The notes under the pieces were generated by a model. That model was not told where the DNA came from. It saw only the letters and a program-made list of their open reading frames with translations, and searched no databases. Below, in pieces: positions 8,614-30,586 of a DNA stretch of 47,533 nt (positions within the stretch are counted from its first letter, which is position 1; the number at the start of each line of letters is the position of its first letter). The position numbers were made by a program, and so were the translations under genes. The DNA is from Acidocella sp. KAb 2-4 (GTDB lineage Bacteria; Pseudomonadota; Alphaproteobacteria; Acetobacterales; Acetobacteraceae), in contig NZ_JAJDJU010000021.1 of the NCBI RefSeq assembly GCF_020567705.1, positions 1 to 47,533 of the forward strand. Direction: 5' to 3'.

Positions 8614-8640
8614 ATACATGCACACCGTATGTATGCATAA
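8614..8640. promoter_or_regulatory. Candidate operator upstream of the nine-gene acyl-CoA operon
   Basis: ATACAT (8614-8619) and ATGTAT (8629-8634) form an inverted repeat with a 9-base spacer. GTATGTATGCATA at 8627-8639 occurs again, exactly but in reverse orientation, at 30304-30316 upstream of the FAD dehydrogenase gene. Bases 8625-8640 also align partly with the wider 16-bp element (CGTAT....GCATA). It lies in the 100-base gap before the acyl-CoA dehydrogenase at 8568. Confidence 0.55.
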
Positions 8641-8668
8641 TGTATGGGCTGATCGATATGGCAAGATC

Positions 8669-9484
8669 TCAGCCACCTCTTGCCGATGGGAATTCAGGCG
8701 CGCGTTTCTCCAAGAAGGCGCTCACACCCTCGGCGAAATCCGCATCAGCCACGGAATCGGCGATGGCATCGCGTTCCGCCTGCATTTGTTCCCGCAGCGG
8801 GCGCTGCGTAGCGCCGTGAAGCAAGCGTTTGGCCCGGCGAATCACGTGCTGCGGCGCGGCGGCGAAACGATGCGCGATTTTCAGCGCCTCGTCCTGTAAT
8901 GATTCTGCGGGTACGAGACGGCTCACCAGCCCCAGGCGCAGAGCTTCATCGGCCTTCACGCTGGCGGCGGTGAGCACGAGTTCCACCGCCTTGCGCTCAC
9001 CGACCGCACGCGGGAGCAGCGCGCTCACGCCACCATCCGGCGTTAGCCCCACACGCTGATGGGAGAAAAGGAAATTCACAGTTTCATCGGCTAGAACGAT
9101 ATCCGCACCCAGCGCGTAGGTCATACCGGCACCGGCTACCGCCCCTTGACAGGCCGCGATAATCGGCAAATCGAGCGCGGTGAAGCTTTCGATCAACCCG
9201 ACTACGCGATCCAACCGTGCTCGGTAATCCTCCCGCCTCTGTTCCGGTGGTGCGGCCAGTGTTTCGTGGAAATTGCGGACATCACCGCCGGCCGAGAAAA
9301 TCTTGCCCTCTCCGCGGATGAGCAGCACGCGGACGGCTGGATCCGTGGCGGCGGATTGGAACAACGACGTCAGCACCGGCACGGCGGCAGAGGGTATCGC
9401 ATTGCCGACTGCTGGACGGTTGAAGGTGACGGTGAGAACGCCGTCATTAGTTTCAGCAATGAAGCCGGTTTCCTCGGAGGCCAA
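8669..9484 (-). CDS. Enoyl-CoA hydratase/isomerase family protein (isomerase-like)
   Basis: The 271-residue crotonase-fold protein has the oxyanion-hole segments FSAGGDVRNF and GAVAGAGMTYALG. In the usual PE..LG..PG.GG region it reads SHQRVGLTPDGG, so the first catalytic Glu of hydratases appears replaced by Gln, while the second (AVELVLT) remains. That pattern resembles enoyl-CoA isomerases of the PaaG/ECI type more than hydratases. It is separated from the next gene by 100 bases holding an operator and has its own palindrome upstream, so it may form its own unit. The family is sure; the isomerase role is inference. Confidence 0.88.
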   Translation of the reverse strand: MASEETGFIAETNDGVLTVTFNRPAVGNAIPSAAVPVLTSLFQSAATDPAVRVLLIRGEGKIFSAGGDVRNFHETLAAPPEQRREDYRARLDRVVGLIESFTALDLPIIAACQGAVAGAGMTYALGADIVLADETVNFLFSHQRVGLTPDGGVSALLPRAVGERKAVELVLTAASVKADEALRLGLVSRLVPAESLQDEALKIAHRFAAAPQHVIRRAKRLLHGATQRPLREQMQAERDAIADSVADADFAEGVSAFLEKRAPEFPSARGG

Positions 9485-9522
9485 TTTGGATCTTCCTGCT
9501 GCTGGTGTTATAGACTATGATA

Positions 9523-9541
9523 AGCATGCGCACGACATGCT
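9523..9541. promoter_or_regulatory. 19-bp inverted repeat upstream of the enoyl-CoA isomerase-like gene
   Basis: AGCATG-N7-CATGCT is a perfect inverted repeat with 6-base arms, 39 bases upstream of the ATG at 9484. It matches the common 16-bp element only in AGCAT, so it may bind the same or another regulator. Confidence 0.4.
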
Positions 9542-9653
9542 GTCCAGTACCTAATCGCAGGTTCGCGCCTAAGGCTGCTTGGGGCAGGGGGAATTAATCG
9601 TGCAAAATAAAAGCTCAAGCGGAGGATGGCCTAAACATTTTGCTGGGCAATTA

Positions 9654-9752: not shown

Positions 9753-10298
9753 ATGTCTTCAACGGAAGCTGACGGCACGAAGCCGCGGCCATCGGCCAAG
9801 CCCTTCCGGTTCGGATATCTCGTTCATGATGTTTCGCGCATCCGCCGCACGGTCATGGACCAAGTGTTTCGTCCGCTGGGGGTGACGAGGTCGCAATGGT
9901 CGATTCTTACGACGCTCTCGCGCGGCGGAAACGACGGAATGACGCAGGTAGATCTGGCAAGGTTGCTTGAGGTGGGCAAGGTGACGGTCGGCGGCCTCGT
10001 GGATCGGCTGGAGGCGACAGGGCATGTTGAGCGCCGGGCTGATGCGTCCGACCGCAGGATCAAGCGGGTTTTTATCACCAAGCAGGGCTATGATGTTCTT
10101 CAGCAAATGATCGACGTCGCCACCAAGCTGAACGAGCGAACTTTAAGTAATGTTTCGCGTGAGGATCGATTAATCTGCGAAGATGTCCTGTTCAAGGTCA
10201 AGCAGAACCTGAAGGAAGTCCTGAAGGAAACCAGCTTGAACTGGCAGGAGGAGTTTGGCAGCCAGCTGGGCGATACGGATTATCGCAACCAACCGTGA
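9753..10298 (+). CDS. MarR-family transcriptional regulator
   Basis: The 181-residue MarR protein has the helix RRTVMDQVFRPLGVTRSQWS, the winged helix MTQVDLARLLEVGKVTVGG with recognition helix LVDRLEATGHVER, and the wing RADASDRRIKRVF, all typical. I chose the ATG at 9753 because GGAAG precedes it at good distance; a reading frame continues upstream to 9579 but adds an unusual basic stretch. MarR proteins often bind 16-20 bp palindromes and release on aromatic or acyl-CoA ligands. It is the only regulator gene inside the catabolic island, hence the best candidate for the shared element. It is convergent with the EthD-like gene. Confidence 0.9.
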   Translation: MSSTEADGTKPRPSAKPFRFGYLVHDVSRIRRTVMDQVFRPLGVTRSQWSILTTLSRGGNDGMTQVDLARLLEVGKVTVGGLVDRLEATGHVERRADASDRRIKRVFITKQGYDVLQQMIDVATKLNERTLSNVSREDRLICEDVLFKVKQNLKEVLKETSLNWQEEFGSQLGDTDYRNQP

Positions 10299-10328
10299 CG
10301 GCGGATCAGATAATCGTTTGGCCGTCAC
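10295..10328. terminator. Stem-loop spanning both stop codons of convergent genes
   Basis: GTGACGGC (10295-10302) pairs perfectly with GCCGTCAC (10321-10328) around an 18-base loop. The stem includes the MarR stop and the stop of the convergent EthD-like gene. No strong U-tract follows, so it may be a weak bidirectional terminator or a structure that limits read-through. Confidence 0.5.
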
Positions 10329-11101
10329 GTCGCTGACATGTTTAACAATCTCAGCAGTTCAGGTGGAAAAGAGGAATAAACCCGATCGCCTAGCTGGTTT
10401 CGGGCGGCATGGACGCGCGACGCCTCGTCGCTGGTCGGATTCCGCGCCGCCTCAGACGTCAGGCGAGGCATGATCGGTGTGTAGCAACCGCATAGTGTTG
10501 GCCAGGGGAGAGGGTTGGCGGCGTCCAACGCCGTCCAGGCTTGCAATGACGCCGGCGGATCGGTCGTCCGATACAGGACCAAGAAATGCGAGTCCGGGTT
10601 GGGCTTAAGCATCTGCTCGGCGGCGATGCGCGAGAATACGCCCTCGGTGACACCCGGCAGGTGCATGATCTGAGTGAACCGCGTCTCAATGTAAAAGCTT
10701 GTAAAATCAGAGGCTTCCGCGTCGAAAGTGATGCGCTCGACAATCACGTCGCTGTTGCCGCTCCGGTCTGTAACCTTGGCCCTGGCGGCCAATGGCTCAT
10801 AATAGGCCTCGCGCATGTCGTCGAAGCGGAAGGAGTCGCTGATCGGCATGGTTGGCGTAAAAACGTCGGCATGACCTTCCGTGAAGCCTTTATGCGCGTC
10901 CGCCTCGTAGATGGCGAGATACTGGTGCGCGGGGGCGGGCCGGCCAGGAAATTGTGCGGCGCTGAGCCTGAAGCGCTGTACGGCGATCGCCCCCGGGCTC
11001 AGCCGCATAACGTCACGTACATGCACATAGCTGTACCAGTCATTGAACTCATCGTCGCGGCCATCATGTGGGTTGGAGAGTACTACCAGCAATTGTTCCA
11101 A
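10325..11101 (-). CDS. EthD-like dimeric alpha/beta-barrel protein
   Basis: The 258-residue protein begins LEQLLVVLSNPHDGRDDEFN (translated from TTG). I place the start at TTG 11101 because GGAGG lies 7 bases before it, whereas the ATG at 11137 lacks a ribosome site. NPHDGRDDEFNDWY..VHVRDVM is the signature of EthD/stress-response barrel proteins with a 'NP..G.e.eFn.WY...H' motif, and a second barrel appears to follow (residues about 120-210). Related proteins are common in clusters for aromatic, terpenoid or steroid breakdown, where their reaction is mostly unknown. It is divergent from the phosphotransferase gene, with an operator between. Confidence 0.75.
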   Translation of the reverse strand: MEQLLVVLSNPHDGRDDEFNDWYSYVHVRDVMRLSPGAIAVQRFRLSAAQFPGRPAPAHQYLAIYEADAHKGFTEGHADVFTPTMPISDSFRFDDMREAYYEPLAARAKVTDRSGNSDVIVERITFDAEASDFTSFYIETRFTQIMHLPGVTEGVFSRIAAEQMLKPNPDSHFLVLYRTTDPPASLQAWTALDAANPLPWPTLCGCYTPIMPRLTSEAARNPTSDEASRVHAARNQLGDRVYSSFPPELLRLLNMSAT

Positions 11102-11176: not shown

Positions 11177-11192
11177 TGATAATCTAGCATAT
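11177..11192. promoter_or_regulatory. Copy of the 16-bp cluster element (divergent promoter)
   Basis: TGATAATCTAGCATAT matches the copy at 27739 (TGATATGCTAGCATAT) at 14 of 16 positions. TAATC and GATTA (11180-11184, 11193-11197) form an extra inverted repeat around it. It lies between the EthD-like gene (start 11101) and the phosphotransferase gene (start 11229), placed to control both. Confidence 0.6.
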
Positions 11193-11228: not shown

Positions 11229-12524
11229 GTGAGCACTGAGATCCCCCATGCCGTGACCGGCGACATGCTCGGCATGGCTTTTCCGCCGACGATCGAGCGG
11301 TTGTTGGAGCACGGCCCTGCCTTCCTTACGGCTGCCTTCCGCCGCACTGGGGCGATAGCGCCCGATAACGAGGTGACGGCCGTGACCGGCGCGAGAGAGT
11401 TTTTCGGCGGCGGCATGGGGCGGAAGTTGTTGCTCGACGTCTCGTACCGGCTTCCTGGGCCGCTAACCGAGTTATTCGTTAAATTCCCGCGTGATTTCGG
11501 AGACCCTCTGCGCCCCCTGTTCGGGCCGTTAATGGAGCCGGAGGTGCGTTTTGCCCTGCTTTCCCGCCAGCCGGCGTTCCCCATCCGCGTGCCGGAATGC
11601 TATTTCGCCGACTATAACGCCGACACGACGAGCGGCATATTGATCACCGAGCGGATCGCCTATGGCCGGGGACCGGTTGAACCGGCACATGATAAATGCC
11701 TGGATTACCAGCTTGCCGCGCCCCTCGAACATTACCGTGCGCTCACGGAAACCATGGCGAGGCTCGCCGCCGGGCATAAGGCCGGTCGCTTGGGCGCGGA
11801 TGTTTCGGCGCAATTTCCATTCCACCCCGGCCGGCTCGATATGGGCAGCCGTATCCCTTACACATCCGCGCAGCTTGCCGAGAAGCTGGCCAAATTGCGG
11901 GAGTTCGCCGCGGCTATGCCGCAGCTGTTTCAGGATGGTCTGGGGGATGCGGCGTTCCTGGCGGACGTCGCGGAAGCGGCGCCGCTGGTGCTTGAGCAGG
12001 AGCAAGCCATCCGCGACTATCTGGACGCGGACATGGATTATGTCGCGCTCTGCCACTGGAACATGAACCTGGACAACGCCTGGTTCGAGCGTAATGCGGA
12101 GGGGCTAAGCGCCGGGCTGCTCGATTGGGGCTGTGTCGGCCAGATGAACCTCGCGCAGGCGTTTTACGGAATGACCTGCGCGGCGGAAACTTCTTTCCTT
12201 GCCCAACACCGCGCGGCGTTGCTGGGGAGCTTCGTCGAACGCTACCGTGCCTATGGCGGGCCTGAACTCTCGCTTGAGAAGCTGGCTTTCATGCTCAAGC
12301 TCGCGGTGGCGGTGCTGGGCATCGCGTGGATCCTGGATGTCCCGTCGTTGGTTGAGGCGCATGTGCCCGATCTCGCTTCTGTGAAGGACCGCCACGACCC
12401 GCGTCTGCGGGATGTGTTTCTTGCCCGTGCGCAATTACAGCTGCTCATGGTGTTCCTGCACGAGTGGCGCGCGGGAAACCTGCCGGCGGCGGTGGAAGCG
12501 CTCGCCGCGGGCAGGGCGCCGTAA
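11229..12524 (+). CDS. Phosphotransferase family protein (APH/EcKinase-like fold)
   Basis: This 431-residue protein starts at GTG 11229. Residues 276-283 HWNMNLDN correspond to the Brenner motif HGDxxxxN of aminoglycoside-phosphotransferase-like kinases, and LDWG with Asp299 to the metal-binding DFG-like motif. ELFVKFP with Lys85 would hold ATP. The usual catalytic Asp of the Brenner motif reads Asn278. I have an impression that homologs in sphingomonad and mycobacterial catabolic clusters share this change, but cannot check. Such proteins may phosphorylate a small hydroxylated substrate or be non-kinase relatives. It is in the island regulon by its upstream element. Confidence 0.75.
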   Translation: MSTEIPHAVTGDMLGMAFPPTIERLLEHGPAFLTAAFRRTGAIAPDNEVTAVTGAREFFGGGMGRKLLLDVSYRLPGPLTELFVKFPRDFGDPLRPLFGPLMEPEVRFALLSRQPAFPIRVPECYFADYNADTTSGILITERIAYGRGPVEPAHDKCLDYQLAAPLEHYRALTETMARLAAGHKAGRLGADVSAQFPFHPGRLDMGSRIPYTSAQLAEKLAKLREFAAAMPQLFQDGLGDAAFLADVAEAAPLVLEQEQAIRDYLDADMDYVALCHWNMNLDNAWFERNAEGLSAGLLDWGCVGQMNLAQAFYGMTCAAETSFLAQHRAALLGSFVERYRAYGGPELSLEKLAFMLKLAVAVLGIAWILDVPSLVEAHVPDLASVKDRHDPRLRDVFLARAQLQLLMVFLHEWRAGNLPAAVEALAAGRAP

Positions 12525-12531: not shown

Positions 12532-13659
12532 TCAGGAGAGCGAGGCGAGCGAAGCCGCGCTGTAGGGCTGCAACTCGGCATAAGCGCCGCGCTGTAGTTT
12601 GCGCACCCATTGCGGATCGACGAGCAATGCGCGTCCCACAGCCACCAGATCGAAATCGCCGCGGCCGAGCATCTCCATCAGCTTATCGAACTTGCCCAGC
12701 GTGGTCGGTACGGGGGAGAACAGCGTCTCCAGCATTTCCTGCTCGATGCCGACCGAGCCGACGGTGATGCTCGGCTTGCCGGTGATCTTTTTCGCCCAGC
12801 CTGCCAAGTTCAGGTCGCTCCCCTCGAATTCCGGCAGCCAGAACCTGCGCTGGGAGGCATGGAAGATATCGACGCCGGCATCCGCCAACGGCTCCAGCAA
12901 GCTTGCCAGCTCCCGCGGCGTTTGTGCCAGCTTGGCGTTGTAGTCCTGCAGCTTCCATTGCGAGAAGCGCAGCACGATGGGGAAATCCGGCCCCACTTTG
13001 GCGCGGCAGGCGCGGATCAGCTCGATACCGAAGCGGGCGCGGTCTGCCAGCTTCGGGCCACCCCAACGATCCGCTCGCTTGTTGGTTTCGTGCCAGAAAA
13101 ACTGATCGACCATGTAGCCATGCGCACCGTGAATCTCGACACCGTCGAAGCCCAGCGCCTTCGCGGTCTCGGCGCCCTTGGCATAGGCGTCGATCAGTTC
13201 CACCACTTGCGCGTCAGTCATCGGCTCTGCCACTTTCTCCCCGGCTGTCACATAGCCAGAGGGGCTGACCTTCGCGGCAAAATCCTCCGGTACGGCTTCG
13301 TACAGGTTTTCCACCACGGGGCGGCGGGTCAGACCGGTGTGCCAGAGCTGTGGCATGATCTTGCCGCCCGCTGCATGCACTTCGGCGACGACACGCCGCC
13401 AGCCGGCCAGCGCGTCCTCGCCATAGAAGCGTGGGGCGTTCTCCTCGTTGGAGGCGGCGGGATGCGGGATCCAGGTGCCCTCGGTCATGATCAGTCCGAC
13501 ACCGCCTTCGGCGCGGCGGCGGTAATAGGCCGCGACGTTTTCACCAGGCACGCCGCCAGGAGAGAAGCAGCGTGTCATCGGCGCCATGACGATGCGACTC
13601 GCCAAATGCAGCGGGCCATGGGTGAAAGGCGTGAACAGCCCTGACAAATCGTATGCCAT
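12532..13659 (-). CDS. NADH:flavin oxidoreductase, Old Yellow Enzyme family
   Basis: The 375-residue FMN TIM-barrel protein has VMAPMTRCFSPGGVPG near the N-terminus, the substrate-binding motif HGAHGYMVDQFFWHETNKR (His-x-x-His type, near residue 175) and RADRWGG. The C-terminal FMN-phosphate segment includes LVAVGRALLVDPQW. It would reduce the C=C bond of an alpha,beta-unsaturated ketone, aldehyde or enoyl compound with NAD(P)H. It is last in a minus-strand trio after a ferredoxin and an enoyl-CoA hydratase, and converges on the phosphotransferase gene with only 7 bases between. Substrate not predictable. Confidence 0.92.
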   Translation of the reverse strand: MAYDLSGLFTPFTHGPLHLASRIVMAPMTRCFSPGGVPGENVAAYYRRRAEGGVGLIMTEGTWIPHPAASNEENAPRFYGEDALAGWRRVVAEVHAAGGKIMPQLWHTGLTRRPVVENLYEAVPEDFAAKVSPSGYVTAGEKVAEPMTDAQVVELIDAYAKGAETAKALGFDGVEIHGAHGYMVDQFFWHETNKRADRWGGPKLADRARFGIELIRACRAKVGPDFPIVLRFSQWKLQDYNAKLAQTPRELASLLEPLADAGVDIFHASQRRFWLPEFEGSDLNLAGWAKKITGKPSITVGSVGIEQEMLETLFSPVPTTLGKFDKLMEMLGRGDFDLVAVGRALLVDPQWVRKLQRGAYAELQPYSAASLASLS

Positions 13660-13694
13660 AACGTTCCCTTGGTTGATGGATTGTATGGGCCGGA

Positions 13695-14012
13695 TCAGTC
13701 CTCCGGCGCGATGGTCACCTTCATCCCGGACATCTCGTCCGTCAGCTTGATCTGGCAGGACAGGCGGGAGGTCTCATTGCGGTGGTCGGATGCGTCCAGC
13801 AACTCGTTTTCATCCGGGCTCGCCGGAAGCATGGTGCCGGCGCAGGCAGGGTCGATATAGACATGGCAGGTGGCACAGGAGCAGCAACCGCCGCACAGGG
13901 CCAGCAATTCATCGAAACCACTATCACGCAACGCCTCCATCAAGGAAATCCCGGTCGGGGCAGTGATGGACGTGGTTGTTCCGGCGCGGTTGGTGACGAT
14001 AATCTCAGGCAT
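13695..14012 (-). CDS. [2Fe-2S] ferredoxin, adrenodoxin/putidaredoxin type
   Basis: This is a 105-residue protein starting [11 protein letters not shown]. The cluster ligands [10 protein letters not shown] (C-x5-C-x2-C) and the distal Cys in LSCQIKL are clear, with CHVYIDP after the third Cys as in putidaredoxin-type proteins. I chose the ATG at 14012 because GAGGAG is at a workable distance; the ATG at 14021 nearly touches it. It probably donates electrons to an oxygenase, the best local partner being the Rieske oxygenase at 17926. No ferredoxin reductase gene is visible in the window. Confidence 0.93.
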
Positions 14013-14050
14013 GAAAGACATTCTCCTCGGGATGCTTATGAAACCAGCGG

Positions 14051-14848
14051 TTAAACGCCCTTGAAGTCGGGGCGGCGCCGTTCCAGAAAGGCGGTGACGC
14101 CCTCGTGGAAATCCGCGGTGTGCTTGCTAAGCCCCTCATAGGCGGCACCGGCTTCGAACAGCGTGGGCAACATCTGCCGCAGGGGGATATTCGCGGTCAT
14201 CTTGGTGTAGCGAATGGCGCTCTGCGCGCCGCGGGACAGACGCTCGGCATATTTATTGACATAGGCGTCGAACTCCGCCGCCGGAATGGCGAAGGTGATC
14301 AGCCCCAGCCGCTCCGCTTCCACGGCGGTCAGCGCCTCGCCCGTCAGCAGGTAGTGCTTGGCCTTGGCGTAGCCGATGAGCTGCGGCCAGATCATCGCGC
14401 CGCCATCACCAGCGCTGAGCCCGATTTTCACATGCGGGTCCGCGAAGCGGGCGGTGTCCACAGCGATAACGATGTCACAGAGCAAGGCGATGGAGGCGCC
14501 GAAGCCCATGGCGTCACCATTCACGCGGGCGATGACCGGCTTCGGGCAATCCAGCAAGGTCTGCACAATCCGCTTCATGATCCGCACCTCGGTGACAAAG
14601 GGCGGCAGGCCTTGGTCGATCTCCTGCCGCAGCCATTTCAGGTCCCCACCGGCGCAGAAGGCTTGGCCGGCGCCGGTCAGTACGATCACGTCGCTATCCT
14701 TGTCATCCGTGGCATCGTCGAAAACGCGGGACATCTCCTCGTGCAATTCGTGGGTGACGGCGTTGAGCTGGTCCGGAAGATTCATGGTAATGGTGAGAAT
14801 GCGCCCCTCACGCGAGAAACGCAGGGTTTTATAGCGGCTTTGGTCCAT
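14051..14848 (-). CDS. Enoyl-CoA hydratase/isomerase family protein
   Basis: The 265-residue crotonase-fold protein has [14 protein letters not shown] and [15 protein letters not shown], the two oxyanion-hole segments. The usual PE region reads [21 protein letters not shown], so neither catalytic Glu is in its standard place. The [11 protein letters not shown] variant is found in crotonases of terpenoid/cyclic-acid clusters, as I recall. Its reaction could be hydration, isomerisation or ring hydrolysis. It opens a minus-strand trio (crotonase, ferredoxin, OYE) and is divergent from the SnoaL-like gene at 14973. Confidence 0.88.
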
Positions 14849-14972
14849 GACTTCTCTCCCTCGGACAGATCTTTGACGTTTGTAGGCTGGGGCGGCTGAT
14901 GCCAGCCAGCCCGGTGGGCTTCCACTTGGTTACTTTACATATCATAATACAGCAAACGGAATAGGAGGGGAA

Positions 14973-15888: not shown

Positions 15889-16908
15889 TCAGCCGATAAA
15901 GACGAGTTTCTTCCCGGTATTGGCGCCGGTGAACAGCGCGCTGAGTGCGCCGGGCGCGGCGTCGATCCCGGTTTCAATGTCCTCATCATGTTCCAGCCCG
16001 TGCTGGAGCAGCATGTCGGTGAGTTGCTCGATCGTCTCGCTGAACCGCGCATGATGATCGAAGATCATAAAACCCGACCAAGTGAGGGCGCGGGACATGA
16101 TTTCGCGTTCGGGGCGCAGGCCGAGCGGCGGAGGATTCCACGAGGCGGTGGCCGCCGTGCCGCATTGCACTATACGGCCATGCCGGGCCATCGCGCGGAT
16201 GGCGGCATCGAGGATCGGGCCGCCGGTATTGTCGAAAAAAATCTGAAATCCGTCCGGACGCAGCGCGGCCAGCGCCTGCGGTAGATCGGCGGTCTTATAG
16301 TTCAGTACCGCGTTGTAGCCAAAGCGTGTGGTGCATTGCGTCACCTTGTCGTTATTGCCGGTCAGGCCGACAGTATAGGCGCCGCGGTGGCGGGCGATCT
16401 GCCCGACGATGCTGCCTACCGCGCCGGCGGCTGTGGAGACCAGCACGGCATCGCCAGGCCTGGGCGGCGCGAGATCCAGCAACGCCAGCCAGGCGGTGAC
16501 GCCGGGCATGCCAAGCACCCCGGCATAGAGCGAAATGGGCGCGCGCGGTGCCGCGATGTGCGAGAACAGGTCGGCACGCGTGGCCAGGGCATAATCCTGC
16601 CAGCCGAAGAAGCCATACACCACATCACCAGCGGAGATGCCGTATTCCCTGGATTCCACCACCACCGCCACGGCCAGCGCCCGCATCGGCGTGCCGAGGG
16701 GAGTGAGCGCCGGATTGGACGCCCAGCCGCGCTGGGCCGGGTCGGCGGATAGATACAGGTTGCGGACCAGGAACTGGCCGGGCTGAGGGGAGGCGAGCGG
16801 CGCTGTCTGGATTGTGAAATCCGCTGCGGCGGGGGTGCCGGCGGGGCGGCGTGTCAGCAGAACCTGGCGGTTTTCCGCTGGCAGGGTGTGACCGGGAATG
16901 AAAGACAT
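15889..16908 (-). CDS. Zinc-independent MDR oxidoreductase (PTGR/CurA-like, NADP-dependent)
   Basis: This 339-residue medium-chain reductase lacks zinc ligands. It begins MSFIPGHTLPAENRQVLLTR, then NLYLSADPAQRGW, GMPGVTAWLALLDL and the nucleotide-binding STAAGAVGSIVGQIA, followed by FDNTGG. This is the pattern of leukotriene-B4 dehydrogenase/prostaglandin reductase/CurA, which reduce enone double bonds with NADPH. I place the start at 16908; the frame is open up to 16992 but would run over the operator. It is divergent from an SDR gene with a perfect 22-bp inverted repeat between them. Confidence 0.92.
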   Translation of the reverse strand: MSFIPGHTLPAENRQVLLTRRPAGTPAAADFTIQTAPLASPQPGQFLVRNLYLSADPAQRGWASNPALTPLGTPMRALAVAVVVESREYGISAGDVVYGFFGWQDYALATRADLFSHIAAPRAPISLYAGVLGMPGVTAWLALLDLAPPRPGDAVLVSTAAGAVGSIVGQIARHRGAYTVGLTGNNDKVTQCTTRFGYNAVLNYKTADLPQALAALRPDGFQIFFDNTGGPILDAAIRAMARHGRIVQCGTAATASWNPPPLGLRPEREIMSRALTWSGFMIFDHHARFSETIEQLTDMLLQHGLEHDEDIETGIDAAPGALSALFTGANTGKKLVFIG

Positions 16909-16956: not shown

Positions 16957-16978
16957 AATCGTATGCTTGACTACGATT
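16957..16978. promoter_or_regulatory. Cluster element as a perfect 22-bp inverted repeat (divergent promoter)
   Basis: AATCGTA-N8-TACGATT has 7-base arms. Bases 16959-16974 (TCGTATGCTTGACTAC) align with the 16-bp element. It lies 48 bases from each of the divergent MDR (16908) and SDR (17026) starts, well placed to repress both. Confidence 0.7.
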
Positions 16979-19829: not shown

Positions 19830-19855
19830 ACACAAGAAATAAGGGAGGTATCGGC

Positions 19856-21638: not shown

Positions 21639-21640
21639 TT

Positions 21641-22544: not shown

Positions 22545-22553
22545 TGGGTCAGA

Positions 22554-23351
22554 TCATGTCGTCAGATGCGCGGTGGCGGTCGCGAACACGTCTCCCATCT
22601 CCGCCATGGTTGGGTTGCGACGTAGGGTGAGGCCGCCATTCACCTGCAGATTTTGTCCGCTCATGAAACACTCATCCGAGGCGAGCCACAATACCGCGGC
22701 GGCGATATCGTCCTTGGTGCCAACACGCCCCAGCGGATATTCCTTGGCGAATGCGTCGACGAATCCTGGCAGCGCGAAAGATCCGCCGGCCATTGGTGTG
22801 TCGGTGATGCCGGGTGAGATCGAGTTGGCGCGGATACCGCGATGCCCAAACTCATTCGCCACTGTTCGAATGACATGATCGATGCCCGCCTTAGTGCCCA
22901 TATAGGCGGCGTGATTTTCGAGCTGGATGGTTGCGGTTGCGGATGAGATCTGAATGATCGAGCCTCCTCCCGGCATCGCCTCGAGCAAAGCCTGAATAAA
23001 AAAGAACGGCCCCTTGAACTGGACGGCCAGCATCCGCTCCAGATCATCTTCGGTTGTGTCCTCCGTCGGCTTGAGGAGGCCCCAGCCGGTCGCGTTCACG
23101 CCGATATCGAGCTTGCCGAAATCCGCCTTGGCCTTGCGTACCGCGGCAAATACTTCGGCCTTTTTGCTGATGTCGGCGAGCGCGTATGTGCCACCGATTT
23201 CGCTGGCGATTTCCTTCAGCACATCCTCATGCCGGCCGACCACGCAGACCCTCGCGCCTTCCTGCGCGAGGCGGCGCGCGATGGTTTGTCCCATGTTGTT
23301 TCTGCCGGCTGCGCCGATGACAATGGCAGCCTTGTTCTCGACGGTCTTCAT
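22554..23351 (-). CDS. Short-chain dehydrogenase/reductase with an atypical glycine motif
   Basis: The 265-residue SDR has the nucleotide motif AIVIGAAGRNNMGQTIARRL, two residues longer than the usual TGxxxGxG, and VNATG in place of NNAG. The catalytic set is Ser137, Tyr150 and Lys154 (AAYMGTK), so activity is expected. SPGITDTPM fits the substrate-loop region. It sits between a crotonase gene (12 bases upstream) and a SnoaL-like gene, which suggests reduction or oxidation of a CoA-linked intermediate. Confidence 0.88.
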   Translation of the reverse strand: MKTVENKAAIVIGAAGRNNMGQTIARRLAQEGARVCVVGRHEDVLKEIASEIGGTYALADISKKAEVFAAVRKAKADFGKLDIGVNATGWGLLKPTEDTTEDDLERMLAVQFKGPFFFIQALLEAMPGGGSIIQISSATATIQLENHAAYMGTKAGIDHVIRTVANEFGHRGIRANSISPGITDTPMAGGSFALPGFVDAFAKEYPLGRVGTKDDIAAAVLWLASDECFMSGQNLQVNGGLTLRRNPTMAEMGDVFATATAHLTT

Positions 23352-23363
23352 GTTGTGTCCTTC

Positions 23364-24164
23364 TCAGGGCCAATAAATCTGGTCCATGGTTTCACCCGCA
23401 TTAAACCGCGATTGGATCTCCCCCATGCGCCTCATGCTGTCCGCATTGGCGAACAATGTCTGGCTGATTTTCTGATCGTTCTCGATACCTTGACTCTGAT
23501 TGAGATCTTCCGCCTCGGCTAACATCTTCTTCATGCCGGCCACGGATTGCGGCGGCAGGGTGGCGATATGGCGGGCAAGATTCAGCGCCTCTTCCACCGC
23601 TTTGCCCTTAGGGGCCAGGCGGTTTAGTCCGCCCAGTTCGTATAGGCGCCGCGCGGTCAGCGGCAGGCCGGTCAGCACTACTTCGGCCGTTACGGTGCGG
23701 CCGATCAGGCGCATCAGGCGCGATGTGCCACCAATGCCGGTGCCGGCCCCGATGATCACTTCGGGCTGGCTGAAGCGTGCCTGTTCCTCTGCCACGCGCA
23801 GATCGCAAGCCCAGCCGAGTTCACAGCCGCCACCGGAGGTGTCGCCATTTATGGCCGCGATGGTGACGGCGCCGCCGCGGTTGAGCGCCTGCAGCGAGCG
23901 GAACCACCCAGCCGGATCGCCGGTGGCGGCGTTGCCCATGACCAGTTGGCGAATATCTTCCAGATAAGCGTGTTCGAGCCAGTGCCCTTCGACCGATGAG
24001 GCGAGGACGATAACGCGCGCGCCCTCCGCCATTGCTTTCTCCAGCGTGTCGGCCAAATGCGAGACCGTCGCGCAGGTTACGGTGTGTGCCGGCGCGCCGC
24101 CGTCACCGACGGTTACGAGGGCCACGCCTTCATGCGGGTAGGCAAGGGTAACATTGCTGCTCAT
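23364..24164 (-). CDS. Enoyl-CoA hydratase/isomerase family protein
   Basis: The 266-residue crotonase-fold protein starts MSSNVTLAYPHEG, with CGGGGAGAAACC before the ATG. DTSGGGCELGWACDLRVAEE and FSQPEVIIGAGTGIGGTSRL give a standard oxyanion segment and keep the Glu of the PE motif, so hydratase activity is plausible. The first oxyanion segment is unusual (SSVEGHWLEHAYLED). It opens a three-gene minus-strand operon behind the strong element at 24280. Confidence 0.88.
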   Translation of the reverse strand: MSSNVTLAYPHEGVALVTVGDGGAPAHTVTCATVSHLADTLEKAMAEGARVIVLASSVEGHWLEHAYLEDIRQLVMGNAATGDPAGWFRSLQALNRGGAVTIAAINGDTSGGGCELGWACDLRVAEEQARFSQPEVIIGAGTGIGGTSRLMRLIGRTVTAEVVLTGLPLTARRLYELGGLNRLAPKGKAVEEALNLARHIATLPPQSVAGMKKMLAEAEDLNQSQGIENDQKISQTLFANADSMRRMGEIQSRFNAGETMDQIYWP

Positions 24165-24571
24165 GGTTTCTCCCCGATGGCACTCTTGGCGGCGCGCTGT
24201 TGGTGTTTCCGAGCGCATGGTGGTGCCGCGGCTGTGAATTCTGGTTGGAGCTTGCGGTGGGCTGGTCTAACTGTCAAGGTCGTATTCTAGCATACCTATC
24301 GAGCAAAACAAAAAATTAGGACGTAAACGATCCGGCATTTTGAGACGTCAGATGGCGCGATGCGCTGTACGCCAAGCGCCGACATCGCAGTGATGGATAG
24401 GGAGGCGACCGACGCGCATTTTGCCAAGCTGGACGAACCGTTTCCCACCACGGTTTCTGTTTGTGATACGGTCCGCGACACTGCGCGTGGTTCCGATGGG
24501 CGGGGTCTCATGCGGTTCTTTGCACTCCGAACTTTACGGGCCTTGTTGCCGGTTGGCGTTGGCCGCTCGGA
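24165..24571. other. 407-base non-coding stretch with the promoter of the crotonase operon
   Basis: Apart from the operator at 24280-24295 I see no supported gene. Open frames at 24360-24701 (+) and 24296-24511 (-) have no recognisable domain, no convincing ribosome site and, for the first, run into the VOC gene on the other strand. It could contain a decayed gene. Confidence 0.5.
24280..24295. promoter_or_regulatory. Cluster element upstream of the crotonase-SDR-SnoaL operon
   Basis: TCGTATTCTAGCATAC differs from the copy at 17856 by one base, and the flanks match too: GTCAA before, then TATCGA and a run of CAAAA after. The element lies 115 bases from the ATG at 24164, in the same strand orientation as the other copies although the gene it serves is on the minus strand. 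Confidence 0.72.
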
Positions 24572-25135: not shown

Positions 25136-25151
25136 TCGTGTGCGAGCATAT
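25136..25151. promoter_or_regulatory. Probable cluster element between VOC and MaoC genes
   Basis: TCGTGTGCGAGCATAT matches TCGTATTCTAGCATAC at 12 of 16 positions. It overlaps the odd palindrome CATAT-A-ATATG at 25147-25157. It lies 49 bases from the VOC start and 69 from the MaoC start. Confidence 0.55.
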
Positions 25152-25219
25152 AATATGGTTGCAAACGACATTAGCAGCTGGCCTCGACCAGGCCGCCGTA
25201 GGAGAGAGGGGCACATTTC

Positions 25220-26074
25220 ATGGACATCGAAAAAATCCGGGCGTTGTCGATCGCACCGATTGAGCAGAGCTACGACAAGCGCGATACGATCCTGTATGCC
25301 CTCGGGCTTGGCTATGGCGCGGACCCGCTGGATGACGCCGAGTTGCCGTTTGTCTACGAGGACCAACTGCGCTGCGTGCCGTCCTTTGCCAATAATCTTT
25401 GCCATCCGGGGTTTTGGGCGCAGCGGCCAGAGTTCGGGATCGACTGGGTGAAGATCCTGCACGCCGAGCAGGATTTTGTGATCCACAAGCCGCTGCCTGG
25501 CACGGGCGCGATCAGCGGCCATTACAAGGTGGCTGGTATCGAGGATAAGGGCGAGGGGCGTGGCGCCTTGTTGCATCAGGAGAAGACCCTGACGGACGCA
25601 CAGACCGGCGAGACCTACGCCACCGTGCGTTCCACGTTGTTCTTGCGTGGCAATGGCGGTGAGGGCGGGTTTGGCGAGAAGATCGTTCCCGCCGCGGCGC
25701 TGCCCGAGAGGGCGGCGGACAAGGTGGTCGAGATCGCCACCCTGCCGCGCCAAGCGCTAATCTACCGTCTGAGTGGCGACTGGAACCCGCTGCATGCCGA
25801 CCCGAAAATTGCCCGCAAGGCTGGCTTCCCGATGCCGATCCTACACGGGTTGTGCACGAATGGCTTGGCCACCCGCGCCATTCTGGCTCATTACTGCGGC
25901 AACGACGTAGCCAAATTCCGAGGCATGTTCGTGCGCTTTTCCAAACCGGTATTGCCGGGTGAAACCATCCGCTTTGAATTCTTCGAGGAAGGCGCAGCCC
26001 AGCTGCGCTTCCGCGCCATTGCCGTGCAACGTAATGAGGTCGTACTGGACCGTTGCGCCGCCACGATAAGCTGA
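25220..26074 (+). CDS. MaoC / 2-enoyl-CoA hydratase 2 family protein
   Basis: The 284-residue double hot-dog protein matches the hydratase-2 domain of peroxisomal multifunctional enzyme. The hydratase-2 motif is YRLSGDWNPLHADP, with Asp187, Asn189 and His192, followed by GFPMPILHGLCTNG. The N-terminal half (about 1-145) is the non-catalytic hot-dog repeat. It would hydrate a trans-2-enoyl-CoA to the (R)-3-hydroxy form; this family often handles bulky or branched acyl chains including steroid side chains. GGAGAGAGG precedes the ATG. The phosphatase gene follows by 37 bases. Confidence 0.92.
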   Translation: MDIEKIRALSIAPIEQSYDKRDTILYALGLGYGADPLDDAELPFVYEDQLRCVPSFANNLCHPGFWAQRPEFGIDWVKILHAEQDFVIHKPLPGTGAISGHYKVAGIEDKGEGRGALLHQEKTLTDAQTGETYATVRSTLFLRGNGGEGGFGEKIVPAAALPERAADKVVEIATLPRQALIYRLSGDWNPLHADPKIARKAGFPMPILHGLCTNGLATRAILAHYCGNDVAKFRGMFVRFSKPVLPGETIRFEFFEEGAAQLRFRAIAVQRNEVVLDRCAATIS

Positions 26075-26111
26075 GCGGCGGTGTGCCGGTGGCGGGGAAG
26101 GGGAGTAGTTA

Positions 26112-26891
26112 ATGACGAGTACCATGCCTGGAACTGAAGCCCGTTTCGTGCGCCTTGCCGGGGCGCATAATGTCCGTGATATTGGCGGTTACGCCACGCG
26201 GGATGGCCGTAAGGTGGCCACCGGCTTGGTTTACCGCGCGGGATCCTTGGCGCGCCTTACCGACGAAGACTTGCGGGTCGTCACGGAGCTTGGCATCCGC
26301 GTTGTATGCGATTTCCGCACCAACGGCGAGCGTGCGCATCGGCCGTCCCGTTTGCCGGCCGAAGTCGAACTTTGGGCCCGGGATCACGACATTGCCCCGG
26401 GTAATCTGCTGCAGGCGATGAGTGGCGCTGAGGCTTCCGCCGAAAAATCGCGCGAGATGATGCTGGATCTCTATCGTGAAATGGCGTTCCAGCATGCTGA
26501 GAGCTTCGCGGAGTTGTTTCGCCGTATTGCCGATGGACTGTTACCTTTGCTGTTTCATTGTACGGCGGGCAAGGACAGAACTGGTACGGCGACGGCGCTG
26601 CTGCTCGACTGGATCGGCGTGACGAGGGCCGAAATCGCGGAGGATTACGCACTGACGGATCTGTTTCTGGAGCAGGGGCTGATGGCGGTAATGCGCGATT
26701 ACGGGACAGACCTGCTACCGCCCGACGAGATCGAGAAATGGAAGCCGCTGATGCGTGCGGACACCGCGTATATCGAGACGATGTTCGCGGCGGTTGAGGC
26801 CGCGCATGGCAGTGTCGGCGGGTATCTTCGCGAAGCGCTGAAGCTCGATGAGCAGACGCTCGCGCGTGTCCGCGAGCGTCTGCTGGCTTAG
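26112..26891 (+). CDS. Tyrosine-protein phosphatase family (Y_phosphatase3) protein
   Basis: The 259-residue protein has NVRDIGGY at 20-27, YRAGSLARLTDEDL, VCDFRTNGER and the phosphatase signature HCTAGKDRTG, with Cys150 nucleophile and Arg156 (C-x5-R). This is the atypical bacterial dual-specificity/phosphoinositide phosphatase group. GGGGAG lies 7 bases before the ATG. Its presence in a CoA-pathway unit is unusual; it might act on a small phosphorylated metabolite, perhaps a product of the phosphotransferase at 11229, but this is speculation. Confidence 0.9.
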   Translation: MTSTMPGTEARFVRLAGAHNVRDIGGYATRDGRKVATGLVYRAGSLARLTDEDLRVVTELGIRVVCDFRTNGERAHRPSRLPAEVELWARDHDIAPGNLLQAMSGAEASAEKSREMMLDLYREMAFQHAESFAELFRRIADGLLPLLFHCTAGKDRTGTATALLLDWIGVTRAEIAEDYALTDLFLEQGLMAVMRDYGTDLLPPDEIEKWKPLMRADTAYIETMFAAVEAAHGSVGGYLREALKLDEQTLARVRERLLA

Positions 26892-26899: not shown

Positions 26900-27700
26900 C
26901 TACCCTCGCAAAGCGGGGTCACCGCCAAAAGAAACGACCGTCAGCCCGCCGTCACTAAACAGTTCCGACGTGGTCATGTAGCTTGAGTCATCCGAGGCAA
27001 GAAACGCGACAACCTTGCCCAGTTCGCGCGGCTGGCCCATCCGGCCCATCGGGATTGCATCGATTAATGCCTTCACCTGCGGGATATCGAGCGGCCGCAT
27101 GCCGGTGCCGCCGGTGAGCATTTCCGTCTCATGCGCGCCGGGATGAACGGAATTGACGCGGATGTTATAGCCACGCTGAGCGCAATGCACCGCGGTGGTC
27201 TTGGTCAGGTTGGCCAGCGCGGATTTGGATGCGCCGTAAATCGTCGTCAGCGGCAGCACCATCTGCGTTGAATTAGAGGCAATGTTGATGATCGAGCCGC
27301 CGCCGCTGGAGCGCATTGCCGGGATGACGGCCTTCGTGCCGAGGAACGCGCCGATCAGATTGACCTCCAGCACGTCGCGGAATTGTTGGGCCGTCGCATC
27401 CTCGATGGTGATGGAAATATTGATCCCGGCATTATTCACTAGCACGTCAAGATGGCCATGCGCATGCATCGCGGTATCGACGAGAGCCGCCCAGGCGTCG
27501 GCGTCCCGGACGTCGAGGTGATGATACTCGGCCTTATGCCCTTTAGCGCGCAGCGCGGTGGCCCGGGCTTCCCCCGCTTCGTCGATCACATCGGCGATCA
27601 GAACAGTCGCGCCCTCTTCCGCGAGCACATCCACCGTGGCTCCCCCCAGGCCGCGTGCACCGCCAGTCACAATTGCAACCTTGCCATCAAGACGAGCCAT
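26900..27700 (-). CDS. Short-chain dehydrogenase/reductase
   Basis: The 266-residue classical SDR has VAIVTGGARGLGGATV, LVNNAG, NIASNSTQMVLPL, catalytic YGASK and VNSVHPGAHETEM. GGAGG precedes the ATG. It resembles hydroxysteroid-dehydrogenase-like SDRs (compare the one at 19856). It converges on the phosphatase gene and is divergent from another SDR with an 18-bp palindrome between. Confidence 0.9.
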   Translation of the reverse strand: MARLDGKVAIVTGGARGLGGATVDVLAEEGATVLIADVIDEAGEARATALRAKGHKAEYHHLDVRDADAWAALVDTAMHAHGHLDVLVNNAGINISITIEDATAQQFRDVLEVNLIGAFLGTKAVIPAMRSSGGGSIINIASNSTQMVLPLTTIYGASKSALANLTKTTAVHCAQRGYNIRVNSVHPGAHETEMLTGGTGMRPLDIPQVKALIDAIPMGRMGQPRELGKVVAFLASDDSSYMTTSELFSDGGLTVVSFGGDPALRG

Positions 27701-27738: not shown

Positions 27739-27756
27739 TGATATGCTAGCATATCA
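27739..27756. promoter_or_regulatory. Perfect 18-bp palindrome, copy of the cluster element (divergent promoter)
   Basis: TGATATGCTAGCATATCA is fully palindromic. Its first 16 bases align with the cluster element (TCGTATTCTAGCATAC) and with the copy at 11177. It lies 38 bases from the SDR start at 27700 and 58 from the one at 27815. Confidence 0.72.
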
Positions 27757-27814: not shown

Positions 27815-28573
27815 TTGGATCTCGAATTAAAGGGCAAGAAGCTGATCATCGGTGGTGCCACGCGCGGCATAAGCAGGGCCATTACCGAGTTGTTCGCACG
27901 CGAAGGTGCGGATGTCGGTATGTTTTCGCGTAACGCCGAAGCGCTCAAGGCGCACGCGGCCGCGCTCGCCAGACATGGCAGCAAAGTTGTCGCCGAGCCG
28001 TTTACCTGGGAAAACCGCGACGGCTACAAGGCCATGCTGATGAACATGGCGGAGAAACTCGGCGGCGTGGATATTTTTGTCCACAGTATTAGCTCCTCAG
28101 GCAATGGGGCGACGCAGGATTGGCAGCAGAGCTTCGATCTCGACATGCTGGGCGCGGTGGATGGTTGCGAGACATTGCAGCCATATCTCGCCAAATCCAG
28201 TGCCGGCGCTGTGGTGCTGATGACCAGCACGGCCGCAGTGGAGACATTCCTCATTCCGCAGGCCTTTAACGCCGTCAAGGCGGCCATCATTACTTATGGC
28301 AAGCAACTCTCGCAGGCTTGGGCGCCGCAGGGCGTACGGGTTAATATGGTTTGCCCGGGCCCGATTACTTATCCAGGCGGTAATTGGGACGGCATCAAGG
28401 CAGCAATGCCACAGCTCTACGATGCGCAGCTCGCTCAGGTGCCGATGGGCCGGTTCGGCGCGCCGGAAGACGTGGCCAAGGCGGTGGCGTTCCTGGCCAG
28501 CCCGGCCGCATCATACATCACAGGCACAAATCTTGTGATCGACGGCGGCTACACCAAGCGCGTTCAGTTCTGA
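27815..28573 (+). CDS. SDR-family protein lacking the catalytic tyrosine
   Basis: The 252-residue SDR-fold protein starts at TTG 27815, with GGAGGAG six bases upstream; no suitable ATG exists nearby. The nucleotide motif reads GGATRGIS, with Ser20 where Gly is usual. VHSISSSG replaces NNAG. In the active site Ser138 and Lys155 are kept but position 151, normally Tyr, is Phe (PQAFNAVK). The C-terminal GAPEDVAKAVAFLASPAASYITGTNLVIDGGY is standard. It may therefore be inactive as a dehydrogenase, or use another mechanism. Codons are in frame with no sign of decay. Confidence 0.85.
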   Translation: MDLELKGKKLIIGGATRGISRAITELFAREGADVGMFSRNAEALKAHAAALARHGSKVVAEPFTWENRDGYKAMLMNMAEKLGGVDIFVHSISSSGNGATQDWQQSFDLDMLGAVDGCETLQPYLAKSSAGAVVLMTSTAAVETFLIPQAFNAVKAAIITYGKQLSQAWAPQGVRVNMVCPGPITYPGGNWDGIKAAMPQLYDAQLAQVPMGRFGAPEDVAKAVAFLASPAASYITGTNLVIDGGYTKRVQF

Positions 28574-28700
28574 GAGCGGATATCAGCGGGGTGTCTGGGT
28601 AGCCGGGTGAGACCGCCTTGGCGTGTAAAGCCGGGCGTTGCTAGCATGGGGCGCGCATTTTAATCTCGTCCAACCGCCCCAGAATCAACGGCGCAGAAAA

Positions 28701-28740
28701 TTATTCGCGAATAACGCCGGCAACCAACAGGCTGCCGGCG
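28701..28740. terminator. Tandem palindromes between convergent genes, candidate terminator
   Basis: TTATTCGCGAATAA (28701-28714) is a perfect 14-bp palindrome. Next to it, CGCCGGCA and TGCCGGCG (28715-28722, 28733-28740) form a perfect 8-bp stem with a 10-base loop. They lie between the SDR stop (28573) and the FAD dehydrogenase stop (28761). On the minus strand no U-run follows directly; function as a two-way terminator is inferred. Confidence 0.5.
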
Positions 28741-28760
28741 TATCGCATTTTACATACTCG

Positions 28761-30173
28761 TTAGGAGGCTTTGGAAGCAGCGTATTTCGCGGCTTCCTCG
28801 CCAGCCAAGCGCCCGAAGGTGAGCGCATTGCCAACGCCCATACCACCGCCGGAGTAGCGCTTGCCCTGCACGCAGCCGAGCACCTCGCCAGCCGCGTACA
28901 GACCAGGGAGGGGGCGGCCGTGAATATCGCGCACGCGACCTTGCGTATCGATGTCCAGCCCGGCACTGGTCTGGCCGATGACGGAGGCGCGCACCTCCAC
29001 GGCGTAGAACGGCCCGTTTTCCAGCGGAAAATATTTGGGCGACACTTTCTGCCACTCGCTGTCCTGCCCGGCATGCGCGTCTTCATTGTAGCGGCGCATG
29101 GTCTCGGCCAGGGCGAAGCGGTCGATATTCAGCTGATCGGCCAGCGCCTCCAGCGTTGGCGCGGTCTTAATCTTGCCGGTGGCCGCGTGTTTGCGGATCA
29201 GTGCCTCATCCCAAGTCTGCGATTCCGCGCCGGTATGATACGGGTCGGAAAAGCGCTTGTCCTGGCTGCCTTCGATCATCGTCTTCTCGTCGAAGATCGC
29301 CCAGGCATGTGAGCGCGTCTGCTCATTGATCAGGTAACCGGAGACCGCGTAGGGCGAGTTCTCCGGCATGAAGCGGCGGCCTTCGTCGTTCACGAGCATC
29401 GTCCATGGCGGCAGGAATGCCTCGACGGCATTGGGGATCAGCGCCGCGGAGGGCAGCATCAGCCCGGTGTCATGCCCGGTTACGGCTGCGCCGACGGCTT
29501 CGCCCAGCTTGATGCCATCCCCGAGGATGAAGGGCGCGAAATTATGCACAGCGTAAACGATATCGCCATGTTGGGCGACAGAGGGGAAATATTTCGCGCG
29601 CATGCCGGGGCTATTGCCGAACCCGCCGGTCGTGATGATCACGGCCTTCGAACGCAGCTCAGCCCCGCTCGCCCGTACGCCGACAATGGCGCCATTTTCC
29701 TCGATCAGGCTGTCCACCCGCGTTGCCAGCACGGTCTCGATGCCCTGGCCGCCCACGGCCTCGCTCAGCAGGCGCGCGATCTCGGCGCCTGCGCCCACCG
29801 TGCAATGCCCGCGCGGCACTGTGTCGACGCCGGATTTTACCACCCATTCATATTTCGCGCCCAGGCTGATCAGCCATTCAATGGTCATGGCGCTACGCTC
29901 GGCAAATAACCGGATGATGTCTGGCCGGGTCTGCCAGGCATTCAGCGTCATGATGTAGTCGAACATGGCCTGGGCCGAATCCTCAATGCCCTGAGCGCGT
30001 TGTACGCTGGTTCCTGCGGCATAGACCACGCCTTCAGAATACTGGGTGGCGCCGCCGAGCTTTTTGTCGGCTTCTAAAATCATCACCTTGGCTCCGGCCG
30101 CGTGGGCAAACAACGCCGCCGTCATCCCGCCGCCACCGCCGCCAATGATGATAATGTCGTAGTCGTATTCCAT
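28761..30173 (-). CDS. FAD-dependent dehydrogenase/fumarate-reductase-like flavoprotein
   Basis: The 470-residue flavoprotein has the FAD motif DIIIIGGGGGGMTAALFA (about 6-23), KKLGGATQYSEGVVYAAG, IITTGGFGNSP and a C-terminal LYAAGEVLGCVQGKRYSGGGMGVGNALTFGRLAGEEAA. This is the FAD_binding_2 family that includes fumarate reductases, 3-ketosteroid-delta-1-dehydrogenases and related desaturases. Length and setting suit a ring desaturase or enoate reductase. GGAGG precedes the ATG. It has a 413-base upstream region with an operator identical in 13 bases to the one at 8627. Confidence 0.9.
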   Translation of the reverse strand: MEYDYDIIIIGGGGGGMTAALFAHAAGAKVMILEADKKLGGATQYSEGVVYAAGTSVQRAQGIEDSAQAMFDYIMTLNAWQTRPDIIRLFAERSAMTIEWLISLGAKYEWVVKSGVDTVPRGHCTVGAGAEIARLLSEAVGGQGIETVLATRVDSLIEENGAIVGVRASGAELRSKAVIITTGGFGNSPGMRAKYFPSVAQHGDIVYAVHNFAPFILGDGIKLGEAVGAAVTGHDTGLMLPSAALIPNAVEAFLPPWTMLVNDEGRRFMPENSPYAVSGYLINEQTRSHAWAIFDEKTMIEGSQDKRFSDPYHTGAESQTWDEALIRKHAATGKIKTAPTLEALADQLNIDRFALAETMRRYNEDAHAGQDSEWQKVSPKYFPLENGPFYAVEVRASVIGQTSAGLDIDTQGRVRDIHGRPLPGLYAAGEVLGCVQGKRYSGGGMGVGNALTFGRLAGEEAAKYAASKAS

Positions 30174-30586
30174 GTTTCCTCCAGATTGTTGTCAGCATAT
30201 GGCGCGATGCGCTTGTTTTACCGAAGAACTCAGGCCTCATTCGTTAGCCGGTCGCGGCCGCATTTAGAGGGGGGAGAACTCCTGCCAGATGTATTGCATG
30301 TGATATGCATACATACCGTACACATAAAATCAACTGGACGAAGCAGGCATCGGTCGACAGCATCGACGCAAAGTCTGACCATGCCGGTATTTTCGCTGGA
30401 TGATCAGCCGTGTCGCCATGTTGGGCTACCAAGGTGCCGCTGGTGCGGTTTCCGCATGGATATGGCACGTTTGCCGAAATTACTTGGCGGCCGGCCTGAG
30501 CGCCAAAGATCGCCCGGAACCCGCCTCAGAGGCGGCAAAAGCCGTCAGGCCCATGGCTCTCGGCGGATGGCGCTTTGCGGAGCCCG
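30174..30586. other. 413-base intergenic stretch upstream of the FAD dehydrogenase
   Basis: It contains the operator at 30303-30318. Open frames here (30102-30734 and 30400-30627 on plus, 30244-30468 on minus) show no domain or good ribosome site. It marks the boundary between the catabolic island and the iron-uptake genes. Confidence 0.5.
30303..30318 (-). promoter_or_regulatory. Operator sharing a 13-mer with the site at 8627
   Basis: On the minus strand it reads CGGTATGTATGCATAT. It contains GTATGTATGCATA, present exactly at 8627-8639. Both lie upstream of minus-strand catabolic genes, here 130 bases from the FAD dehydrogenase start. Confidence 0.58.

Follow-up and report, generated by a model that had tools for sequence, protein, structure and literature searches.

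Catabolic regulons under the control of MarR-family proteins are already known as a kind, and the network described here, marked by a short palindromic operator on a 47,533-nucleotide contig of Acidocella sp. KAb 2-4 (NZ_JAJDJU010000021.1; the whole contig is called the window below), can be set beside the described systems nearest to it. CouR of Rhodococcus jostii, the MarR repressor of p-hydroxycinnamate catabolism, shares with it the protein family of the candidate regulator, inverted-repeat operators at several catabolic promoters and a coenzyme A (CoA)-dependent catabolism; as far as the consulted parts of the CouR report go, its boxes overlap the -35 element and its ligand, p-coumaroyl-CoA, has been demonstrated (PMC4737184). 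Here, a TTGACA-like box stands 4 bp beyond the operator at six promoters among 40 sites. The CouR box takes a different form (cATTGA, a 5-bp spacer and TCAATg), four promoters are named for its regulon (couN, couR, couT and couH), and the same parts of that report mention no tandem phasing at 15 bp, which is present here (PMC4737184).

The actinobacterial sterol systems of KstR and KstR2 resemble the present network in being large catabolic regulons. Their gene classes are similar to those found here (acyl-CoA dehydrogenases (ACADs), thiolase, MaoC, Rieske, KstD-like and P450), KstR2 answers to CoA esters, and their operator sequences differ from this operator. The nearest solved chains to the MarR protein encoded in the window (MarR1) are SlyA and PA3341-type proteins, at low similarity (E about 1e-15 to 1e-12), which serve other regulons. 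KstR and KstR2 are TetR-type repressors of sterol genes in the portion of PMC8399759 consulted, whereas the product encoded at 9753 is a MarR protein; PheR of Sphingobium is described in the accessible part of PMC13273656 as IclR-type with another motif. The main text of a study of Sphingobium and tomato glycoalkaloids, in the portion available, has 0 occurrences of "MarR" (PMC10653915). Searches with the motif strings returned unrelated papers only, and no description of the operator, its phasing or the regulon turned up in searches of open-access literature, a scope that leaves most subscription journals outside.

Sequence comparison indicates that the operator belongs to a genuine, as yet uncharacterised regulatory network, present both here and in distant relatives. 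The 14-bp palindrome RTATGCTAGCATAY, with its variants, describes the operator core best. The window, which is the whole of contig C14 in the 3.1-Mb genome (G000), holds eight main sites, all in promoter gaps, together with two weak pairs and the gene for the candidate regulator:

8627..8640: operator variant GTATGTATGCATAA, 66 bp before ACAD2, the first gene of a minus-strand run of eight genes; weak 15-bp partner at 8612
9505..9533: weak tandem operator-like pair 9505/9520, spacing 15, in the gap before MarR/ECH1; alone not significant
9753..10298, plus strand: MarR-family regulator MarR1, candidate binder (Pfam MarR_2, 5e-15)
11179..11192: operator ATAATCTAGCATAT, between the EthD-like (minus) and APH-like (plus) genes; weak partner at 11164
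14929..14957: weak tandem pair 14929/14944, spacing 15, before ECH2
16961..16974: operator GTATGCTTGACTAC, between the MDR oxidoreductase (minus) and SDR1 (plus) genes; imperfect 22-bp inverted repeat at 16957-16978
17858..17871: operator GTATTCTAGAATAC, perfectly palindromic, with a Rieske oxygenase gene 62 bp downstream
24282..24295: operator GTATTCTAGCATAC, ahead of the minus-strand genes ECH3/SDR3/SnoaL2; TTGACA 4 bp beyond
25138..25166: two operators, 25138 and 25153, at a spacing of 15; they precede the gene for the MaoC2 hydratase
27741..27754: operator ATATGCTAGCATAT, embedded in a perfect palindrome of 18 bp and flanked by SDR4 (minus) and SDR5 (plus)
30303..30316: operator variant ATATGCATACATAC, 136 bp before an FAD-dependent KstD-like gene (minus)

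The nearest downstream start codon lies within 124 bp at the other seven main sites. An original prediction, made from the letters of this contig, had named a 16-bp pattern with variants in promoter gaps, and every string that it gave is present where it was placed; the exact 16-mer TCGTATTCTAGCATAC occurs at 24280 alone among the ten places printed, the rest being variants. Of the palindromes that it called perfect, those at 27739 (18 bp) and 17858 (14 bp) are so, while the 22-bp repeat at 16957 pairs at 8 of 11 positions. The related forms that it saw at 8625 and 30303 both contain RTATGTATGCATA, of which the genome has exactly two copies, and align in register with the main motif. As for its weaker forms, 9514 falls within the pair 9505/9520, and 9654 is without support, giving no profile hit of at least 7 bits.

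Five window matches to the consensus GTATGCTAGCATAC were found with up to three mismatches, all of them intergenic; shuffling the whole window gave a mean of 0.83 and never reached five in 100 trials. When 17 promoter-type gaps were shuffled (with an SDR1 start 9 bp off the position 17026 read from the translation), the five matches compared with a mean of 0.14 and a maximum of 2 in 500. At up to four mismatches the same gaps held nine matches against a shuffled mean of 0.98 and maximum of 6 in 500, so that sites are enriched in promoter gaps over shuffled gaps; in the window as a whole, 4 of 13 such matches are genic (20705, 21452, 26878 and 40682).

Strong sites are rare in the rest of the genome. 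A stringent 18-bp pattern built from the window sites matches seven places in 3.1 Mb, six of them in the window and the seventh, C56:28659, before a Rieske oxygenase gene; all seven precede genes, and the reversed pattern used as control matches none. In its stringent form the motif is thus not equally common inside genes and elsewhere; looser matches do occur in genes and genome-wide. A profile built solely from the sequences of the eight window sites, each taken in both orientations, and reported to E<=10, gave 14 strand-wise hits in the genome, corresponding to six window places, C56:28659 and C16:12117, the latter before an SDR gene; window sites 8627 and 25138 were not recovered at this limit, and the congeners G068 and G140 gave no hit. 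Its E-values are weak (0.1 to 3), and its strength lies in where the hits fall rather than in single hits. The further places on C56 and C16, before functionally related genes, indicate that the regulon spans at least three contigs. With a separate profile of the 14-bp core, scored in bits, these unlinked contigs show the following sites, several of those on C16 being weak singly (6.5 to 12 bits):

C56:19585: site before the APH-family kinase gene APH2, about 60 bp behind which lies the gene for a second MarR protein, MarR2 (C56:17517-17999; the two genes lie within C56:17517-19528)
C16:155: site before an EcKL/APH-like gene
C16:5342: site in the gap between a flavoprotein gene and a divergent TetR gene
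C16:6100/6115: double site before a Rieske gene
C16:12120/12135: double site before the SDR gene
C16:13084: site before a DUF1302/DUF1329/BNR block
C16:22195: site before another SDR gene
C16:26123: site before another Rieske gene

Two features of the operator were absent from the original prediction. Among 38 sites of at least 13 bits by the core profile, some of them genic, nine are accompanied at exactly 15 bp by another match scoring 2 bits or more. Shuffled flanks gave 0.49 on average at this spacing and never more than 4 in 200 sets (5 at any spacing), and no other spacing was observed more than three times. Six of the nine phased sites lie outside the training set, and two 15-bp pairs on C16 were already visible by a plain pattern scan. 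Moreover, a perfect TTGACA occurs in four cases within the range scanned around 40 sites (80 orientations), each time starting 4 bp beyond the 14-mer; when -35-like matches of five or six letters are counted, 6 of 29 stand at +4, and all six are directed towards the gene that follows. At most sites no box of this kind is present, so the layout is a class and not a rule.

The operator is retained in other species where flanking sequence has diverged. Close relatives of MarR1, at 65-73% identity, are found on ten Sphingobium "Tom" plasmids (three regions fetched) and in nine other genomes, which include Acidocella aquatica, Sphingobium vermicomposti and S. lactosutens; the genome search gave 12 loci, three of them (L027-L029) distant. 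Six of 37 genomes of the A. aquatica genus, G000 not being among the 37, carry a close MarR1, and at 1e-40 the protein was detected in 5 of 150 family genomes, G000 itself among them, with 46-50% identity in the remaining four. In the A. aquatica locus the genes follow the same relative order, E1b-E1a-ECH1-MarR-EthD-like-APH-OYE-Fdx-ECH2-MDR-SDR1-SDR4 (54-85% identity), but the ACAD1-to-ACAD2 block and the Rieske-to-MaoC2 part of the window are absent from it. In Sphingobium L015 the HMGCS-to-ACAD1 block is 65-84% identical and has its own site, 14470.

Across Acidocella and Sphingobium, the site recurs at the orthologous promoters of EthD-like/APH, MDR/SDR1, the HMGCS operon, ECH2, SDR5 and MaoC2. 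In locus L018 the gap orthologous to EthD-like/APH holds a tandem pair (11411/11426) and that orthologous to MDR/SDR1 a site at 16555; ECH2 promoters have sites in L015 (34325) and, weakly, in L018 (15122); sites L015 35937 and L045 1501 precede SDR5-like genes; and the orthologous ECH3 promoter in L047 and L083 repeats the layout at 24282, operator and then -35 box. Ten other genomes or records bear MarR1; the window-trained profile was run on seven of them and found sites in four: before the HMGCS operon in W01; before orthologues of ECH3 (85% identity) and of the Rieske gene on the unlinked contig C56 (79%) in G150; in the MaoC2 gap and before a Rieske gene in G156; and before a gene 53% identical to the APH gene of C56 in G157. 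The scattered but unified regulon of the original prediction is larger than first seen, reaching two further contigs, and is conserved at orthologous promoters in other genera.

We favour the reading, at a probability of roughly 0.58, that the palindromes are operators of one catabolic regulon read by a MarR-type protein, most likely MarR1, which would repress until a pathway intermediate releases it. A homodimer of this protein would bind RTATGCTAGCATAY, joined at several promoters, at a distance of exactly 15 bp, by another dimer or an additional half-site. Since the operator lies over or beside the -35 box at some promoters, binding should block RNA polymerase there, and the scattered oxygenase, dehydrogenase, hydratase and thiolase units would be kept off. 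Repression instead of activation is what we infer, and the releasing intermediate is plausibly a CoA thioester, as for CouR.

MarR1 is the probable binder. It carries a MarR winged-helix domain (Pfam MarR_2, 55.8 bits against a cut-off of 27), and no other regulator gene was seen in the operator-bearing stretch of the window, as the original prediction had stated; a LysR gene (36422) and an AraC gene (39885) lie outside that stretch. Its support as regulator comes from comparison: close homologues co-occur with the motif in relatives, and in an alignment of six close MarR1 proteins the recognition-helix segment EVGKVTVGGL does not vary. Among 12 upstream regions of MarR1 and its close homologues, five have a best site reached by at most 12 of 400 shuffles (L018, L020, L021, L023 and L026), against one of seven for distant MarR genes. 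In G152 (locus L020), G153 (L021) and G158 (L026 and L042) the motif stands before MarR1, while neither MarR2 (1e-15) nor the TetR protein of C16 (1e-30) was found; in L042 the gap is divergent, with a 379-aa open frame that matches no Pfam family on its other side, and the motif could serve that frame.

Several observations weigh against this reading. MarR1's own window promoter is not significant (57 of 400 shuffles reach its best score), no significant site was detected upstream of the homologues in L015, L017, L019, L022, L024 and L025, and L020, L021 and L026 look alike, so that the five positive regions are not independent. The MarR1-bearing genomes G152, G154 and G155 gave no window-trained profile hit at E<=10, although G152 and G155 do have sites by other scans, and a loose pattern found 22 places in ten MarR1-bearing genomes or records against 12 for its reversed control. 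Because two orthologous ECH3 promoters are among the four cases with a perfect TTGACA, the independent ones number three. The core profile also matches inside C16 genes, twice at 14-15 bits (16880 and 31646), so that a single core match is no proof of an operator. In favour of a chance or structural AT-rich element, such as a mobile repeat or nucleoid site, weak matches are common: a looser pattern with two mismatches gave 95 matches against 62 for the control, which is too noisy to use. Some family genomes with few bases also reach 7-9 loose hits (G116 9, G054 8 and G122 7, with controls of 3, 2 and 7), so that the loose pattern, which matched in 61 of 150 family genomes, six times in G000 against 0 for the control and not at all in its congeners, is weak evidence alone. 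Stringent sites are nevertheless confined to these promoters and recur at orthologous ones with diverged flanks, which makes chance or structure very improbable, and a mobile repeat or structural element was rejected on these grounds. An operator just upstream of the -35 box, with the site ending 4 bp before a TTGACA-like box at six promoters, also suits an activator, be it MarR1 or another factor, and this position is close to that of many activators. We consider activation unlikely: site 33404 of L015 has a 15-bp partner that lies over the -35 box, and CouR, a MarR protein on catabolic genes with boxes over -35, represses in the parts of its report consulted (PMC4737184).

The identity of the reader is contested by two other proteins of the same genome. 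MarR2 is 35% identical to MarR1, with a similar recognition helix; the two share Q48, QV, GK-T-G and RLE positions in the DNA-binding region, and the presence in G000 of a second protein with this GK-T-G pattern counts against MarR1 as sole reader. Of 11 genomes or records searched, 7 encode MarR2 or a homologue at 45-68% identity, which on the Sphingobium plasmid L015 lies inside the cluster, and in G000 the MarR2 gene follows APH2, whose promoter holds C56:19585. All ten Tom plasmids with a close MarR1 carry both proteins and give no separation. MarR2 was not found at 1e-15 in G152, G153, G154 or G158, three of which have the motif before MarR1, and only one of seven MarR2-type upstream regions scored has it (L097, 7 of 300 shuffles; those of G000 and L092 were not among the seven). 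That MarR2 is the main reader, or that both MarR proteins read the operator with MarR1 as a parallel sensor for another intermediate, is a serious rival reading, though in our view a doubtful one. A KstR-like arrangement, with the TetR-type protein of C16 (5405-6088) as regulator, is less probable still. Sites do precede TetR genes, both at C16:5342 in G000 and, at 14.9 bits, about 155 bp before a 39% identical TetR in G156 (L068), which again counts against MarR1; yet TetR homologues at 1e-30 are present in only 3 of 10 MarR1-bearing genomes or records and in 1 of 150 family genomes, G000 itself, and the closest two, in L066 (63%) and L067 (57%), have no site of at least 8 bits anywhere.

The repression of scattered catabolic units by MarR1 would concern the following genes of the window:

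224..8568, minus: run served by the 8627 site, with E1b, E1a, ACAD1, CitE-like lyase, MaoC1, thiolase, HMGCS-like and ACAD2 (from translations)
10325..11092, minus: EthD-like protein (by eye; no Pfam hit)
11229..12524, plus: phosphotransferase, APH/EcKL-like (by eye; no Pfam hit)
12532..14848, minus: OYE-type flavin oxidoreductase, 2Fe-2S ferredoxin and ECH2
15889..16908, minus: MDR-family oxidoreductase
17026..17808, plus: SDR1
17926..21955, plus: Rieske oxygenase alpha, SnoaL1, SDR2, DUF1330, COX3-like and a small membrane open reading frame
21942..24164, minus: ECH3, SDR3 and SnoaL2
25220..26891, plus: MaoC2 (MFE-2 hydratase type) and a tyrosine-phosphatase-family protein
26900..27700, minus: SDR4 (by eye from the translation)
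27818..28573, plus: SDR5
28761..30173, minus: FAD-dependent dehydrogenase of the flavocytochrome c / ketosteroid dehydrogenase superfamily

That the genes served are all CoA, redox or SnoaL-like, as first proposed, slightly overstates the case: APH-like kinase, EthD-like, DUF1330, COX3-like and tyrosine-phosphatase-family proteins are served as well. The gene set suggests that the substrate may be a polycyclic isoprenoid, for instance a steroid or a terpenoid. It comprises thiolase, an HMGCS-like protein (with a DUF35-like C-terminal part by our reading), MaoC, a CitE-like protein, paired ACADs, Rieske oxygenases and OYE, together with the genes that suggest a steroid pathway, namely the KstD-superfamily FAD enzyme, a CYP142/CYP125-like P450 and DUF1302/DUF1329. 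The P450 gene (C16:33619-34908), whose best solved relatives are the CYP142/CYP125 steroid C26-monooxygenases, adjoins paired acyl-CoA dehydrogenase genes.

Other parts of the contig deserve mention. E1 alpha and beta of a 2-oxoacid dehydrogenase are encoded at 224-2205 with no E2 seen in the window, and an E2 catalytic-domain gene lies at C16:27988-28743 among genes bearing the same operator. The COX3/NorE-like membrane protein gene and small membrane open reading frame at 21048-21955 sit inside the Rieske/SnoaL/SDR unit, and L022 has another COX3-like gene, 45% identical, in the neighbourhood of MarR1. About 0.8 kb between two operators (24300-25130) is without a confident gene and is possibly a decayed one. 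A separate Rieske oxygenase pair with an AraC-type regulator (37860-40895, by eye) has no operator match of at least 7 bits and so probably belongs to another regulon. Groups of iron-uptake type flank the catabolic stretch, with an FTR1-like permease neighbourhood at 31245-32927 and an ABC transporter with its binding protein at 42676-46996 (by eye).

Looking forward, if the substrate is steroid- or terpenoid-like, the operator provides a direct handle on the pathway: promoters that carry it pick out the pathway genes on unlinked contigs, those of unknown function among them, it names two or three candidate regulators, and it can be traced into Sphingobium megaplasmids. More tentatively, two MarR paralogues with similar recognition helices may read one composite operator, in which 14-bp palindromes recur at a 15-bp phasing beside the -35 box. 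This would be a transferable regulatory code by which acidophilic Acetobacteraceae-like bacteria, and Sphingobium by way of megaplasmids, control the degradation of steroid- or triterpenoid-type compounds. Were this true, the code of two MarR proteins and a composite operator would supply the class of regulator that is missing for pathways of this kind in Proteobacteria.

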